A stretch of DNA of 64,000 bases from assembly GCF_900475755.1 (NCBI RefSeq), contig NZ_LS483411.1:1488001-1552000 (forward strand), read 5' to 3'. Origin of the DNA: Haemophilus influenzae (GTDB lineage Bacteria; Pseudomonadota; Gammaproteobacteria; Enterobacterales; Pasteurellaceae). This document shows positions 53,755-60,040 of the stretch, one piece after another (within the stretch, counting starts at the first letter, position 1; each line of letters starts with the position of its first letter). The position numbers and the translations under genes were made by a program. The notes below the pieces were generated by a model that ran no database searches, was not told where the DNA came from, and saw only the letters and a program-made list of their open reading frames with translations.

Positions 53755-55404
53755 TTATTCACCTTTAGCTGCTTTAAATGCTTCAGCCATTGCATTTGGA
53801 ATAACAATATCTTCTTGTTTGTTATTTACACTTGCAACTGCCGCAGCTTCTTCAGCTTGATCTTTTGCTTTCACTGATAAGTGAACAATACGAGATTTAC
53901 GATCTACCCCAGTATATTTCGCTTCAACAACATCGCCAACAGCTACTTCATTTGTTAAATCAGCAGAACGGATATAACCTTCAACACCTCCTGCTAATTC
54001 AACTTTAGCACCTTTAGCATCTGCTTCAACAACAGTTGCAGATACTACCGCACCTTTTTTGTTGATTGCGACGAAGTTATTGAATGGATCTTCTTCAAGT
54101 TGTTTAATACCTAAAGAGATACGTTCTTTTACTGCATCAACAGCTAATACAACAGCTGACACTTCGTCACCTTTTTTGTATTGACGAACAGCTTCTTCGC
54201 CTGAAATACTCCAAGAAATATCAGATAAGTGAACTAAACCATCGATACCACCTTCAAGACCGATGAAGATACCGAAATCAGTGATAGACTTGATTTTACC
54301 CGTTACTTTATCGCCTTTGTTGTGAGTATCAGCAAATTGAGTCCAAGGGTTAGCTTTACATTGTTTTAAGCCTAAAGAAATACGACGACGTTCTTCATCA
54401 ATTTCTAATACCATTACTTCTACAGTATCGCCTAAGCTAACCACTTTAGATGGGTGGATATTTTTATTAGTCCAATCCATTTCTGAAACGTGAACTAAAC
54501 CTTCAACGCCATCTAAGATTTCAACGAAACAGCCATAGTCAGTTAAGTTAGTTACTTTACCTGTTAATTTGCTGTTTACAGGATGGTTTTCAGCAATTGC
54601 TGCCCATGGATCTTGACCTAATTGTTTTAAGCCTAAAGATACGCGAGTACGATCTTTATCGAATTTTAATACTTTAACAGTTACTTCATCGCCAACATTT
54701 ACGATTTCACTTGGGTGTTTAACACGTTTCCAAGCCATATCTGTGATATGTAATAAACCATCAACACCACCAAGATCAACGAATGCACCGTACTCAGTTA
54801 AGTTTTTAACGATACCTTTAACTTCTGAACCTTCAACAAGATTTTCTAATACTTGTTCACGTTCTTGGCTGTTTTCAGATTCAATTACTGCACGACGAGA
54901 AACAACAACGTTGTTACGTTTTTGATCTAATTTGATTACTTTGAATTCTAATTCTTTACCAAGTAAGTGATCTGCTTCACGCGCTGGACGAGTATCAACT
55001 AAAGAACCTGGTAAGAATGCACGAACACCGTTTAACTCAACTGTGAAGCCACCTTTCACTTTGCCGTTGATTAAACCGATAACGGTCGCTTTTTCTTCGT
55101 AAGCTTTTTCTAATTCAATCCAAGATTCGTGACGAACAGCTTTCTCACGAGAAAGTTTAGTTTCGCCGAAACCATCTTCAACTGCATCTAAAGCAACATT
55201 TACAGTATCGCCAACTTGGATTTCAAGTTCGCCTTGTGCATTTAAAAATTCAGCAACTGGAATTGCAGACTCAGATTTTAAACCTGCATCAACAAGCACA
55301 AAGCCTTTTTGGATAGCTACTACAGTACCGCCAACGATTGAACCTTGACGAGTTTCAAGGCCTTTTAATGATTCTTCAAAAAGTTGAGCAAAAGATTCTG
55401 ACAT
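53755..55404 (-). CDS. rpsA: 30S ribosomal protein S1
   Basis: S1 helps the ribosome bind mRNAs with weak Shine-Dalgarno sequences. It is 549 aa with six S1 RNA-binding domains. Domains 3-6 show repeated signatures such as [37 protein letters not shown] and [19 protein letters not shown]. The codon use is that of a highly expressed gene. cmk lies upstream on the same strand. Confidence 0.98.
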
Positions 55405-55506: not shown

Positions 55507-56178
55507 CTAAACTGATACCTTTTCTTGAATATAAGATAATGCTTGATCGATTACTTCATCGATACTCAAGCTTGTGCTATCCAATAATAAAGCATCATCT
55601 GCTGGTTTTAGCGGCGCAACTTCACGATTTCTATCACGAAAATCACGCTCTTTTATCTCGGCTAAAATCTGTGCAAAGTTACCATTTATTCCTTTATTTT
55701 GCAACTGTTTATAGCGTCTTTTTGCACGTTCTTCAGCACTTGCATCTAAAAATAATTTTACTTGTGCATTTGGGAATACAACTGTTCCCATATCTCTACC
55801 ATCCGCAATTAATCCATCATTTTTCGCAAAATCTTGCTGAAGTTGTAACAAAGCTGACCGCACTTTTTGAAAAACTGCTACTTTTGACGCAGCATCTGCC
55901 ACTTCTTGCGTGCGAATTAAACGGCTCACATCCATTCCTGCAAGCAAAATGTTTACCTCGCCATTTTGAGGAATAAATTGAATATCTAAATGACGTGCTA
56001 ATTCTGCTAAATCTGTTTCATTTGTTAGATCAGTTTTACGTTGCAACGCTGCCAATGCAGTAACGCGATAAATCGCCCCACTATCCAACAGTGCATAGCC
56101 CAACTTTTCAGCCAACGCGTAACAAAGCGTCCCTTTCCCAGCACCACTAGGCCCATCAACAGTAATAATCACTCCCAT
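55507..56178 (-). CDS. cmk: Cytidylate kinase
   Basis: Cmk phosphorylates CMP and dCMP with ATP. I start at ATG 56178, after AAGGA, giving 223 aa; the open frame extends 41 codons further with no support. The P-loop is GPSGAGKGT, the CMP-binding region has DSGAIYRV and [13 protein letters not shown], and the lid carries [10 protein letters not shown]. It heads the cmk-rpsA-ihfB block. From memory, strain Rd has a second cmk copy elsewhere next to pdxST. Confidence 0.96.
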
Positions 56179-56646
56179 ACAAATTATCCTTTCATTATCA
56201 AAATTTTGCGCATTATAGAGACAATTGCCCCTCATTACCATCCTAGAGATTATTACTAGCTTCCATGTTTTGTATGGCTTATCTAATAAAGTTAATTTCA
56301 CAAGCTCTAGGAAGGCGTAAACTCTCTTTCAAGCCTTTTTTCTTAAATTTCAGAAAATCTAACCGCATAGAAAAAAGGTTTTAAAAACATTTCAAAGTTT
56401 TTAATAACTATTGTAGCACTTAAGGACGAAATTCTTTCAGCTAAAGTAGCGCTTTTTTCTATTATTAAATTGGACAATCCTTCTGACATTCTACACTTGG
56501 TTTATACAAAAAACTGAAATTAAGCACGCTAGACATTATGCCTTTTAATATATACGCATTTTTTCAAACTTGTTCTAAAGACTTTTCTACATTACAATAA
56601 AAAACGTAGCTATCAATACAAATAATCAAATAATGAGGACAAAGAA
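56179..56646. other. Gene-free stretch between cmk and pdxS
   Basis: This 468-base A/T-rich gap holds the cmk promoter region on the minus strand and the pdxS promoter at 56570-56598. I see no open reading frame with a ribosome site, no uptake signal and no long repeat. It may contain the junction where the pdxST segment joined the Haemophilus chromosome, but I cannot place that junction. Confidence 0.5.
56570..56598 (+). promoter_or_regulatory. Promoter of pdxS-pdxT
   Basis: A -35 TTGTTC and a -10 TACAAT are separated by 17 bases, with the pdxS ATG about 50 bases downstream behind a GAGG ribosome site. No PdxR-type regulator gene is adjacent, so I see no sign of the vitamin-responsive control known in some Gram-positives. 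Confidence 0.55.
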
Positions 56647-57522
56647 ATGGCTGAAAATCGTTATGAACTAAATAAAAACTTAGCACAGATGCTCAAAGGT
56701 GGAGTTATCATGGATGTTCAAAACCCTGAGCAAGCTCGCATTGCAGAAGCTGCTGGTGCAGCTGCAGTGATGGCTTTGGAACGAATTCCTGCAGATATTC
56801 GTGCTGTTGGAGGTGTCTCTCGCATGAGCGATCCTAAGATGATCAAGGAAATCCAAGGAGCAGTTAGCATTCCAGTTATGGCAAAAGTTAGAATTGGACA
56901 TTTCGTTGAAGCTCAGATTTTGGAAGCTATTGAAATTGACTATATTGATGAAAGTGAAGTGCTTTCTCCAGCTGACAACCGTTTCCATGTGGACAAGAAA
57001 GAATTCCAAGTACCTTTTGTATGTGGTGCCAAGGATTTGGGCGAGGCCTTGCGTCGTATCGCTGAAGGGGCTTCAATGATTCGTACAAAAGGAGAACCAG
57101 GAACAGGAGATATCGTCCAAGCTGTTCGCCATATGCGCATGATGAATCAAGAAATTCGTCGCATTCAAAATTTACGTGAGGACGAACTCTACGTTGCGGC
57201 CAAGGATTTACAAGTTCCTGTAGAATTGGTTCAATACGTCCATAACCATGGGAAATTGCCAGTTGTCAACTTCGCAGCTGGAGGAATTGCAACTCCAGCA
57301 GATGCAGCCTTGATGATGCAACTTGGCGCAGAGGGTGTCTTTGTTGGTTCAGGTATTTTTAAGTCAGGAGATCCTATAAAACGTGCGAGCGCTATTGTCA
57401 AAGCTGTAACTAACTATCGAAATCCACAAATCCTAGCACAAATCTCCGAAGATTTAGGTGAAGCCATGGTTGGTATCAATGAAAATGAAATCCAAATTCT
57501 CATGGCCGAGCGAGGAAAATAA
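56647..57522 (+). CDS. pdxS: Pyridoxal 5'-phosphate synthase subunit PdxS
   Basis: PdxS builds pyridoxal phosphate from ribose 5-phosphate, glyceraldehyde 3-phosphate and ammonia supplied by PdxT. It is 291 aa, a TIM barrel. The key residues Asp23, Lys80 (MAKVRIGHF) and Lys148 ([10 protein letters not shown]) are in place. The protein is close to the Streptococcus pneumoniae enzyme as I remember it. The codons also differ from the neighbours, with more AAG, GAG and TTG, which suggests acquisition from a streptococcus. Most gammaproteobacteria use the unrelated PdxA/PdxJ route. Confidence 0.97.
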
Positions 57523-58104
57523 ATGAAAATCGGAATATTAGCTCTACAAGGTGCCTTTGCGGAACATGCACGAATGCTAGAAAAATTAGGAATTGAAAGT
57601 GTCGAACTGAGAAATTTAAAAAATTTTCAACAATATTACAGTAATTTATCAGGTTTGATTCTACCTGGCGGTGAGTCAACCGCCATAGGAAAACTTTTAA
57701 GAGAGCTGCATATGCTGGAACCGATGAAACAAGCTATCTCTTCTGGCTTTCCTGTCTTTGGAACTTGTGCTGGTTTGATTCTGTTGGCTAAAGAGATTAC
57801 TTCTCAGAAAGAGAGTCATTTTGGAACGATGGACATTGTGGTTGAGAGGAATGCCTATGGACGCCAATTAGGAAGTTTCTATACAGAAGCAGATTGCAAA
57901 GGGGTTGGTAAAATTCCTATGACTTTTATCAGAGGACCTGTTATCAGTAGTGTTGGTAAAAAAGTCAATATTCTTGCAACGGTAAATAATAAAATCGTTG
58001 CAGCTCAAGAAAAGAATATGCTGGTAACATCATTTCATCCTGAATTAACAAATGACATGAGTTTGCATAAGTACTTTATTGATATATGTAAAGTAACAAG
58101 TTGA
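57523..58104 (+). CDS. pdxT: Pyridoxal 5'-phosphate synthase glutaminase subunit PdxT
   Basis: PdxT hydrolyses glutamine and channels ammonia to PdxS. It is 193 aa of the class-I amidotransferase type. The nucleophile Cys82 is in FGTCAGLIL, and His172 and Glu174 are in SFHPELT. The glycine-rich [11 protein letters not shown] loop binds glutamine. The ATG follows the pdxS stop immediately, so the genes are coupled. Like pdxS it resembles the streptococcal protein and contains no uptake signal. Its last codons lie inside the terminator palindrome. Confidence 0.96.
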
Positions 58105-58130
58105 GAAAATATTTTCTCAATTTGTTACTT
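58091..58130 (+). terminator. 40-nt palindrome ending pdxT
   Basis: The two 20-base halves are inverted copies except for one position that can form a G-U pair. The repeat overlaps the last five codons and stop of pdxT. It is unusually long for a terminator and has no T run directly after it, so it may instead stabilise or end the transcript in another way. Confidence 0.65.
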
Positions 58131-58441
58131 GGATAGTATTGAAATTATCTCTGCCACTCTACACCTTTCTCCAAATCTCGGGTAGTTTCTCCTTGTTTTG
58201 ATTATTACCACTATCCTTGGCTTATTCAGCACGTATATTTTTATCTATCCATCTAATCAATATTTCATTTTATTCTATTAATTATCGGATAAATAAAAAT
58301 TAGTAATAAAAATGTAAAAAATGAAAAAAAAATGTTAAATTTTATGAGATATTGATCACATTTTCTTAAAATAGGTATATGATTTTTTTATATAAATCCA
58401 TAAAATCATCACATCTTTTACTCTAACTCTGAGGATATTTT
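58105..58441. other. Gene-free stretch between pdxT and lctP
   Basis: This 337-base A/T-rich gap holds the end of the pdxT palindrome, a CRP-like site at 58345-58360, a possible -10 TATGAT at 58378 and the lctP ribosome site region (GAGGA). I see no gene or uptake signal. Confidence 0.5.
58345..58360. promoter_or_regulatory. CRP-like site upstream of lctP
   Basis: TGAGA-TATTGA-TCACA matches the CRP consensus TGTGA-N6-TCACA with one mismatch. It is about 80-95 bases before the lctP start, near a TATGAT -10 box. Catabolite control of lactate uptake would make sense. Confidence 0.55.
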
Positions 58442-60040
58442 ATGCTGTCTTTTATTCTAAGTATTTTTCCTATCGTTTTACTGATTTATCTTATGGTAAA
58501 AAGAAACGCGCTACCTTCTTATGTTGCCTTACCTTGGATTGCGACATTAGTTATGGGCGTTCATCTTTTACACTTTAATACAGATATTGTTACTATTAGT
58601 GCAAATGTTGTTTCTGCAATTGTTGCGGTACAAACTCCTATTACAGTAATTTTTGGTGCGATTCTCTTTAACCGTTTCTCTGAAATTTCAGGCGCAACGA
58701 ATATTATGCGAAAATGGTTAGGAAATATTAATCCAAATCCCGTTGCACAATTAATGATTATTGGTTGGGCATTTGCCTTTATGATCGAAGGTGCAAGTGG
58801 TTTTGGTACACCAGCAGCAATTGCCGCACCTATTTTAGTGGGATTAGGTTTTCATCCATTAAAAGTGGCGATGTTGGCACTGATTATGAACTCAGTTCCC
58901 GTATCCTTTGGTGCGGTAGGTACACCAACTTGGTTTGGTTTTGGTGCTTTAAAATTATCAGAAAATATGATTTTAGAAATTGGGTCTATTACAGCATTTA
59001 TACACTCCGTTGCTGCACTTATTATCCCATTATTAGCACTTCGTATCTTAGTAAGTTGGGATGATATTCGTAAAAACATCGTATTTATCTATATTAGCGT
59101 ACTAGGTTGCGTAGTACCTTATTTCTTGATTGCTCAAGTCAATTACGAATTTCCATCACTCGTTGGGGGGGCAATCGGCTTATTTATTTCCGTATGGGCT
59201 GCGAATCGCAATATTGGTTTAGCAAAAGTAACAAATAACCTTGATAATAATGCGGTAAGTACGGGAGAAGTAGTTAAAGCATTATTCCCTACAGGTTTAC
59301 TTATTGCATTTTTAATTGTGACTCGTATTCATCAATTACCATTCAAAGCAATGATGAATGACGCAACTATTTGGTTCTCAACCACATTAGGTTCGTTAGG
59401 ATTATTTGAAATTAGTAAAGGTTTAATCTTTAGCTTAAAAAATATTTTTGGCTCAAATGTTTCATCAAGCTATAAACTTCTTTATGTACCCGCATTAATT
59501 CCATTTGTCATTACAGTGCTAATTGCGATTCCTTTCTTTAAAATTTCCAGTTCAAATGTTAAACAGATTTTTGTATCAAGTTTACAACAATCTAAAAATC
59601 CATTTATTGCCTTAGTTGGTGCCTTAGTGATGGTAAACCTAATGTTAGTGGGTGGCGAACATTCTATGGTAAAAATTATTGGTCGAACTTTTGCTGAAAT
59701 TTCTGGTAGTAACTGGACTATTTTCTCCTCTTTCTTAGGTGCGATTGGATCGTTTTTCTCAGGTTCAAATACCGTATCCAACCTAACATTTGGTAGTGTT
59801 CAACTTTCTACCGCAGAAACAACTGGCATTTCTGTCGCACTTGTTCTTGCTTTACAATCTGTCGGTGGGGCAATGGGGAATATGGTATGTATCAATAACA
59901 TTGTAGCGGTAAGTTCTGTGTTAAATATTTCAAACCAAGAAGGCACAATTATTAAGAAAACCATTATACCTATGATCATTTACGGTATCATTGCCGCACT
60001 TTGCGCGTTGTTCTTAGTACCTTTGTTTTATAATCTATAA
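58442..60040 (+). CDS. lctP: L-lactate permease
   Basis: LctP imports L-lactate with protons across the inner membrane. It is 532 aa with about 13 helices. Family sequence is visible in FMIEGASGFGTPAAIAAPI and, near the C terminus, FFSGSNTVSNLTFG and VGGAMGNMVCINNIVAVSS. Lactate from the host would feed pyruvate and the pyruvate dehydrogenase encoded here. The gene stands alone and ends in an uptake-signal hairpin. Confidence 0.96.
   Translation: MLSFILSIFPIVLLIYLMVKRNALPSYVALPWIATLVMGVHLLHFNTDIVTISANVVSAIVAVQTPITVIFGAILFNRFSEISGATNIMRKWLGNINPNPVAQLMIIGWAFAFMIEGASGFGTPAAIAAPILVGLGFHPLKVAMLALIMNSVPVSFGAVGTPTWFGFGALKLSENMILEIGSITAFIHSVAALIIPLLALRILVSWDDIRKNIVFIYISVLGCVVPYFLIAQVNYEFPSLVGGAIGLFISVWAANRNIGLAKVTNNLDNNAVSTGEVVKALFPTGLLIAFLIVTRIHQLPFKAMMNDATIWFSTTLGSLGLFEISKGLIFSLKNIFGSNVSSSYKLLYVPALIPFVITVLIAIPFFKISSSNVKQIFVSSLQQSKNPFIALVGALVMVNLMLVGGEHSMVKIIGRTFAEISGSNWTIFSSFLGAIGSFFSGSNTVSNLTFGSVQLSTAETTGISVALVLALQSVGGAMGNMVCINNIVAVSSVLNISNQEGTIIKKTIIPMIIYGIIAALCALFLVPLFYNL

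Follow-up and report, generated by a model that had tools for sequence, protein, structure and literature searches.

The window analysed here is a stretch of 64,000 nucleotides of Haemophilus influenzae (contig NZ_LS483411.1, positions 1,488,001 to 1,552,000 of the forward strand). Its pdxS-pdxT operon codes for the two subunits of pyridoxal 5'-phosphate (PLP) synthase and is closely related to the operon of streptococci. The genome holding the window (G000) is a single contig of 1.83 Mb. Its rpsA-cmk stretch is 98.6% identical to that of genome G006 and ~97% to those of G005 and G007, close to H. influenzae. The operon lies between cmk and lctP. Its two genes are intact, with open and adjacent frames (window 56647-58104), in the order pdxS (56647-57522, + strand, 291 aa, lyase subunit) and pdxT (57523-58104, + strand, 193 aa, glutaminase subunit). 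PdxS scores 515.5 bits against TIGR00343 (NCBIfam equivalog cut-off 438.45) and PdxT 262.5 bits against TIGR03800 (cut-off 105.55).

The motifs MAKVRIGH (position 78) and RTKGEPG (position 146) of PdxS are those that we take to carry its two catalytic lysines, and the solved PdxS chain 2zbt has MAKVRIGH and RTKGE at the same positions of the alignment. PdxT features FGTCAG (position 79) and SFHPE (position 170), presumably the motifs of the Cys-His-Glu triad, both aligned in the solved PdxT chain 1q7r. Family models and catalytic motifs identify the gene pair as coding for a PLP synthase, whose activity in the cell is predicted. The PdxS-PdxT synthase is a 12 + 12 assembly that makes PLP from ribose 5-phosphate, glyceraldehyde 3-phosphate and glutamine. 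Comparison of G000 with G006 reveals purifying selection on pdxS (dN 0.003, dS 0.064) and pdxT (dN 0.018, dS 0.049), which is looser on pdxT.

Similarity to streptococcal pdxS-pdxT genes

The loci compared were the best 80 of at least 585 confirmed stretches plus the best 30 places of a search for Pasteurellaceae PdxS, L002 and G005 being counted once. PdxS is 95-97% identical to the proteins of 32 Streptococcus loci of the mitis/infantis group, 89% to that of S. vestibularis, 82-89% to those of Clostridia and others, and 64-68% to 24 native-type Pasteurellaceae PdxS. PdxT has 75-80% identity to the same mitis/infantis streptococci and 40-49% to native Pasteurellaceae proteins. The PdxT search covered 5.8 billion proteins, with 7999 candidates scored; the best 120 of these, which where named belong to Streptococcus, include two clusters at 98% and 93% identity, followed by proteins at 81% or less.

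DNA homology by BLAST runs over both genes at 80-84% identity in all 32 mitis/infantis-group loci. The alignments begin at 56553-56628, with 15/32 extending left beyond the -35 region, and end at 58089-58131, with 10/32 reaching the end of the terminal palindrome (58131); 3/32 do both. The homology always spans both genes, while promoter and terminator are included in part of the loci. The initial annotation had described the pair as of streptococcal type, which agrees with two intact genes above the family cut-offs and with the PdxS identities. It had also called PdxS nearly pneumococcal, of which the streptococcal part holds and the reference to the pneumococcus does not: the DNA identity to the S. 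pneumoniae locus L012 (82.0%) does not exceed that to S. mitis types (up to 84.1%), and the pneumococcus is not supported as the specific donor. The transfer is old, since the DNA and PdxT identities have fallen to the values above. The four Haemophilus copies form one clade, so that the transfer preceded the split of these genomes or was followed by later spread among them.

Divergence is uneven along the operon. Within part of pdxS (window 57046-57396, alignment columns ~400-750) the mean identity to mitis loci is 87-90% (best 94%) against a mean of 82-86% between mitis and infantis loci; elsewhere the two distances are about equal. That this part is closer to mitis than mitis is to infantis suggests a mosaic history. 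The synonymous distance to S. mitis 17/34 (L009), 0.64 for pdxS and 1.33 for pdxT, likewise makes a mosaic possible.

Codon use was scored for the 41 window open reading frames against two backgrounds, the other window genes and 14,729 streptococcal codons from seven loci. With scores of -0.103 and -0.070 respectively, pdxS and pdxT clearly resemble streptococcal more than Haemophilus usage; the next score is -0.002 and the remaining 38 of the 41 are positive. As had been proposed, the two genes differ from their neighbours and are the most Streptococcus-like of the window. AAG makes up 40% of the Lys codons of pdxS versus 9% in the background and TTG 39% of the Leu codons versus 15%, in agreement with the enrichment initially claimed, whereas GAG, also named, rises only from 14% to 20%; the effect is weaker in pdxT (AAG 13%, TTG 19%, GAG 38%). 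The exact 9-mer core of the uptake signal is absent between 55857 and 60058, the longest gap among 53 sites. This desert around the operon, put forward as a sign of transfer, is real but weak evidence because the second-longest gap measures 3927 bp and lctP fills more than a third of the longest.

A tree of PdxS plus PdxT proteins was built by a quick method with 69 rows chosen from 109. It groups the four Haemophilus rows together (99), then with the 32 mitis-group rows (98), and places this clade inside Streptococcus including S. vestibularis (99), with twelve native Pasteurellaceae rows across a long branch (100; all four values starred as marked). The DNA tree (38 rows) also unites Haemophilus with the mitis group (100/99, starred). 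The Haemophilus copies thus stand inside Streptococcus and not in a vertically inherited Pasteurellaceae clade, the tree check proposed earlier having been run with this outcome. The conflict between gene tree and species tree marks the operon as a putative horizontal acquisition, which is assigned a streptococcal origin because of the trees, the DNA homology covering the transcription unit, the codon use and the empty sites in Haemophilus relatives described below.

Vertical inheritance of a Pasteurellaceae pdxS-pdxT pair (pdxST) that looks streptococcal through conservation of PdxS could draw on the presence of PdxS in 45 of 140 Pasteurellaceae genomes and on its ~84% identity to many Clostridia. 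However, identity to the native Pasteurellaceae copies, a clade of their own, is only ~65% for PdxS and 40-49% for PdxT, the noncoding promoter and terminator DNA is streptococcal too, and six of the ten genomes of the genus lack the gene. Identity and trees led to rejection of this explanation, which is practically out of the question. Note that two other Pasteurellaceae genomes, G041 (L085) and G093 (L086), encode a ~80% identical PdxS. Its position in the tree, next to Lachnospiraceae and a single Fibrobacter row (92-94, not starred), apparently reflects another acquisition within the family, independent of the first.

Sister topology alone gives no direction, a point in favour of the reverse transfer, from Haemophilus to an ancestor of the mitis group. 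It is made highly improbable by the streptococcal codon use of the Haemophilus genes, by the Haemophilus relatives with empty sites, by the branching of S. vestibularis just outside and by the conservation of downstream neighbours across mitis/infantis-type loci (5/7). The ~4.4 kb located 3' of pdxST in S. pneumoniae L012 is collinear with the corresponding DNA of five of the seven compared loci (L030, L007, L026, L024, L033). This conservation points to long residence of the operon in the mitis group and speaks for Streptococcus as the donor.

Promoter, leader repeat and terminator

The putative promoter (56570-56598, + strand) has a -35 box TTGTTC (56570-56575), a spacer of 17 nt and a -10 box TACAAT (56593-56598). 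It lines up with the streptococcal pdxS promoter TTGTNN-17-TAAAAT or TACAAT, in keeping with the proposal that the unit has a promoter of its own. A generic scan did not list it because merely 8/12 positions match the consensus. The following leader CAATACAAATAATGAGGA is nearly unchanged relative to streptococci. It carries the octanucleotide CAAATAAT twice in tandem (56619-56634, + strand), immediately followed by the probable ribosome-binding site GAGGA (56635-56639, + strand).

The 32 Streptococcus leaders have a single octamer (CAAATAAT in 4/32, CAAATGAT in 10/32, CAACTATT in 11/32, others in 7/32) and none of them has it in tandem. In Haemophilus, G000 and G005 have two octamers each, G007 has six, and the pair of G006 is degenerate. 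The single streptococcal octamer thus appears to have become a tandem repeat in Haemophilus, whose copy number, as in phase-variable loci defined by tandem repeats, differs among the four genomes. Each repeat step adds 8 nt of AU-rich leader right before GAGGA. No leader RNA structure was detected beyond that of shuffled sequences (z -0.74 and 0.83). The repeat is already known as a variable one from passages of PMC2651432, which describe the octanucleotide ATTATTTG 12 bp upstream of pdxS, with 1, 4 or 6 copies in the first four genomes and 4 or 6 in seven of twelve more. Its authors doubted phase variation there, copy range and length being unlike those of a classical phase-variable locus. 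It is the same repeat; its derivation from a single streptococcal octamer is not in those passages.

The unit ends with the 40-nt palindrome reported initially (58091-58130, + strand), which overlaps the pdxT stop codon and is the counterpart of a streptococcal terminator hairpin. Its arms (58091-58110 and 58111-58130) are 95% complementary, with a folding energy of -21.8 kcal/mol (z -7.3). The downstream alignment has 20 streptococcal rows, 13 of the 38 rows being without downstream sequence. The hairpin AAGTTGAGA...TCTCAACTT is found in eight of the 20, all mitis-side, a different hairpin occupies the site in seven infantis-side rows, and other DNA in the remaining five. The palindrome of G000 has no T-run behind it and was not listed by the generic scan; it is lost in G005, G006 and G007.

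These features bear on the donor, which on sequence grounds would be a streptococcus of the mitis group or a close relative missing from the sample. A wider reading, in which the donor was any unsampled streptococcus or another organism that had obtained the unit from Streptococcus, fits the absence of a protein between 93% and 81% PdxT identity among the best 120 of 7999 and the position, weakly supported, of Haemophilus outside the sampled mitis and infantis groups. Against it, the closest pdxS rows are from S. mitis, 4/32 loci, all mitis-side (L003 among them), have exactly the leader CAAATAATGAGGA, and the palindrome is like the mitis-type hairpin and unlike the infantis-type one; this wider donor is unlikely, though a serious contender. 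Haemophilus and mitis streptococci share the respiratory niche.

Insertion site and insertion sequence remnants

The native left neighbours of the operon are a gene that we take to be rpsA, for ribosomal protein S1 (53755-55404, - strand), and the cytidylate kinase gene cmk (55507-56178, - strand; TIGR00017, 338.9 bits), of which no second copy was found in G000 by DNA or protein. The rpsA-cmk stretch is 89.5-98.6% identical to nine other Haemophilus genomes. On the right, the lactate permease gene lctP (58442-60040, + strand; TIGR00795, 583.6 bits) is also native, with matches in six of the ten genomes of the genus and none in G001-G004; in G005 (C1 1419931-1421525; L131, L132) the match is in two pieces with an internal TAG.

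Relative to the cmk-lctP junctions of G008 and G005, which are without insert and have 44-45 bp of their own DNA between the matching ends, the whole insert spans 56227-58259 (blastn breakpoints 56226 and 58260). The junction varies among relatives in other ways too: G009 (L140 7588-14289) has a lyase, an acetyltransferase, an amino-acid ABC transporter and a peptidase-like gene (by eye) between cmk and lctP. To the right of the operon, the insert includes a flank of 129 bp (58131-58259) whose right part resembles by eye the DNA upstream of lctP in G009.

The left flank is a decayed insertion sequence (IS) of the IS200/IS605 family (~56234-56551, + strand) that abuts the streptococcal -35 region, the IS605 match ending at 56551 and the streptococcal match starting at 56553 at the earliest. 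The remnant has a left end, the N-terminal part of tnpB with stops and the start of tnpA; an intact transposase and both ends, which define a complete element, are absent. Its DNA was matched in 23 of 140 family genomes, several of them multicopy (G035 four, G063 four); four of the 23 are the pdxST genomes themselves and three have a match of only 32-42 bp. Copies of the element fetched from seven genomes are ~1.8 kb long and code for TnpB (OrfB_IS605, in G000) and TnpA (Y1_Tnp, in G129). The remnant TnpB is 53.6% identical over 56 residues with stops (E 3e-5) and two DNA pieces are 70-78% and 76-80% identical to the element; the left end aligns with a score above 30 shuffles for three of four copies, by a small margin. 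Elsewhere in G000, an apparently intact IS200/IS605 element that has frames for both tnpA and tnpB (C1 ~1772193-1774014; L174 694-2515) splits an ABC transporter ATPase gene (SapF-like by eye).

The element may have carried pdxST in as cargo, as suggested by a remnant that abuts streptococcal DNA and whose left end lies only a few bases from the boundary of the insert. This is doubtful: an IS605 right end was not found 3' of pdxT, where no local alignment exceeded shuffled scores and where the flank 58131-58259 gave no IS605 match, the related copies are Pasteurellaceae residents, and none of 33 loci has a close copy near the streptococcal pdxST. Two of these, the S. mitis loci L014 (4292-4624) and L018 (7167-7517), have a different IS200-like TnpA, 30% identical, which lies ~0.4 kb 5' and 0.7 kb 3' of pdxST, respectively.

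Arrangements of the locus in Haemophilus

Gene order around cmk, whose comparison had been recommended, was examined in the ten genomes of the genus and gave three arrangement types among the four with pdxST (REARRANGEMENTS). Type I (G000) is rpsA-cmk-[IS605 remnant-pdxST-terminator]-lctP, while fbp runs unbroken into an nlpC-like gene (named by eye). Type II (G005) has rpsA-cmk-lctP plus fbp-[cmk fragment-IS605 remnant-pdxST-IS110 remnant-dld]-nlpC-like, and type III (G006, G007) has rpsA-cmk-pdxST-IS110 remnant-dld plus fbp-cmk fragment-lctP. The second copy of cmk in G005, G006 and G007 comprises only its first ~31 codons and, with upstream DNA, 134 bp that correspond to window 56093-56226. 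The two cmk ends are in opposite orientation and 421-443 kb apart in these genomes, so that the simplest link between types II and III is an inversion, in either direction; the shared 134-bp stretch probably served as crossover.

In types II and III a remnant of an IS110-family element starts at the pdxT stop codon. It was identified through an intact homologue in L184, a protein family search with a 62-residue piece giving no match. The adjoining dld, for D-lactate dehydrogenase (L134 9575-11269), may likewise have been acquired: neither G000 nor the 12 loci around cmk and fbp in six other Haemophilus genomes gave a DNA match.

Type I is most simply ancestral because it alone keeps the terminator and because the fbp site is uninterrupted in six relatives without pdxST, as it is in G000. 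The window arrangement cmk-pdxST-lctP is thus probably the original landing site. The opposite polarity, with the fbp/dld location original and the window derived, would accord with cmk-fragment arrangements in three of the four genomes and with strain Rd, described with cmkB-pdxS in passages of PMC2651432. It is hard to reconcile with the palindromic terminator, kept only by the window copy while the others end at the IS110 remnant, with the cmk fragment joined to pdxST, which needs a source junction at cmk, and with the empty fbp sites, and is judged improbable. The statement in the initial annotation that pdxS of strain Rd lies beside a second cmk is borne out by the cmkB of that source. 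As suggested there, the genes were moved by recombination between cmk duplicates, but probably in the opposite sense: the window site would be original and the sites with the 134-bp fragment derived.

Distribution and control of the operon

PdxS is found in four of the ten Haemophilus genomes (G000, G005, G006, G007). Among the 45 Pasteurellaceae genomes with PdxS, 39 have the native type (~62-67% identity). PdxJ was detected in none of the 140 genomes of the family, the positive control finding it in 4/14 known genomes, E. coli included. The six Haemophilus genomes without PdxS thus have neither PdxS nor PdxJ by these searches. With no PdxJ detected in the family and no PdxS in these six, the imported operon probably re-established vitamin B6 synthesis, the lineage otherwise depending on salvage.

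In S. pneumoniae the apo-form of PdxR activates pdxST, according to passages of PMC5320631. A TGTACCC..ACA block upstream of the -35 box in most streptococcal rows shown (by eye) is gone in Haemophilus, where the junction just upstream of the -35 box means that the streptococcal DNA normally present there is missing. The block may well be part of the PdxR operator. MocR proteins average 60 + 350 residues in passages of PMC4944035. A MocR-type PdxR (GntR plus aminotransferase) was not found in G000, whose six GntR-domain hits, two of them over the cut-off, lie without exception in frames of 170-265 aa, shorter than such a protein would need. The operon is thus probably uncoupled from PLP feedback. 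A tentative extension, rather unlikely to hold, is that the mode of control was swapped, PdxR and its operator being left behind and the leader octamer expanded, so that a heritable repeat number would set vitamin B6 synthesis. If true, this would be contingency-type control of a housekeeping cofactor pathway built from foreign leader DNA.

Proposed course of events

The account that best fits the observed identities, boundaries, trees and arrangements starts with an ancestor of the H. influenzae-like clade that would have received a complete streptococcal pdxS-pdxT unit (promoter core, genes and terminator), donated by a streptococcus of the mitis group or by a close relative outside the sample. 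Its landing place would have been next to an IS200/IS605 element, between cmk and lctP, where the synthase genes would have restored vitamin B6 synthesis in a salvaging lineage. The DNA upstream of the -35 box, with the presumed PdxR operator, would have been left behind, with loss of PLP feedback. Within a sub-lineage, pdxST would afterwards have reached a place beside fbp together with a cmk fragment, the IS110 remnant and dld, and recombination between cmk and its fragment would then have inverted ~0.43 Mb. As a whole, including transfer, landing, restoration and later rearrangement, this account is very probably correct; route of entry, physiological benefit, loss of regulation and order of events are deduced from the arrangements and comparisons above. 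The overall reading of the initial annotation survives in the streptococcal origin, is revised as to the pneumococcal donor, the direction of the cmk move and the weight of the uptake signals, and is extended by the IS remnants beside the operon, which it had not noted.

Several points weigh against this account. In the DNA tree Haemophilus stands outside both the mitis and the infantis groups with a support of merely 90/89, and two long outgroup rows (S. vestibularis and Leptotrichiaceae) meet. Approximately unbiased (AU) tests reject neither Haemophilus with mitis (p 0.31) nor with infantis (p 0.46). Single-gene trees disagree, pdxS placing Haemophilus on the mitis side (81/59) and pdxT outside, and the set has only one non-mitis streptococcus. 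S. mitis L009 shares with L012 the upstream side and not the downstream neighbours, and S. vestibularis L064 shares with it the operon only, with no neighbours. The 75-80% identity of PdxT makes an intermediate host possible, the account does not explain the 129 bp of the right flank, the operator is itself a deduction, and of the proteins for synthesis and salvage of the vitamin the survey covered PdxS and PdxJ.

Relation to known operons and significance

The Haemophilus operon shares with that of S. pneumoniae/mitis the gene order, DNA at 80-84% identity, promoter spacing, leader, ribosome-binding site and terminator hairpin. It differs in the IS605 DNA upstream of the -35 box, the lack of a detected PdxR-type regulator, the tandem octamer, a palindrome without T-run and different neighbours. 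The native Pasteurellaceae pdxS-pdxT genes code for the same enzyme families across the distances given above. The pair has been studied in Actinobacillus pleuropneumoniae (PMC5407770), whose copy is presumably of the native type; the text of that paper gave no match for "influenzae", "horizontal" or "phylogen-".

The genes are known as species markers from passages of three papers: PMC4551764 lists pdxS/pdxT as H. influenzae-specific, PMC8812261 employs them for validation, and PMC8830169 has pdxT as a marker. These passages deal with the same genes and give no streptococcal origin, IS remnants or inversion. A streptococcal origin of H. influenzae pdxST is unstated in the open full-text literature searched, and may well have been noted before in subscription papers beyond reach, including early vitamin B6 phylogenies. 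Marker use and repeat are already published; as far as searched, the combination of origin, IS remnants, inversion and repeat is apparently new. The event is of a known kind, an old inter-phylum transfer of a full transcription unit.

Haemophilus and these streptococci are naturally competent neighbours, and the locus presents a whole transcription unit that crossed phyla between them, with landing site, IS remnants and later rearrangements still readable. Only a few genes serve to distinguish H. influenzae from H. haemolyticus, pdxS/pdxT among them, and the streptococcal import explains why they separate the two species. It also calls for caution, as throat streptococci have relatives of this species marker at 80-84% DNA identity. 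Part of the difference between H. influenzae and H. haemolyticus may lie in vitamin B6 independence.

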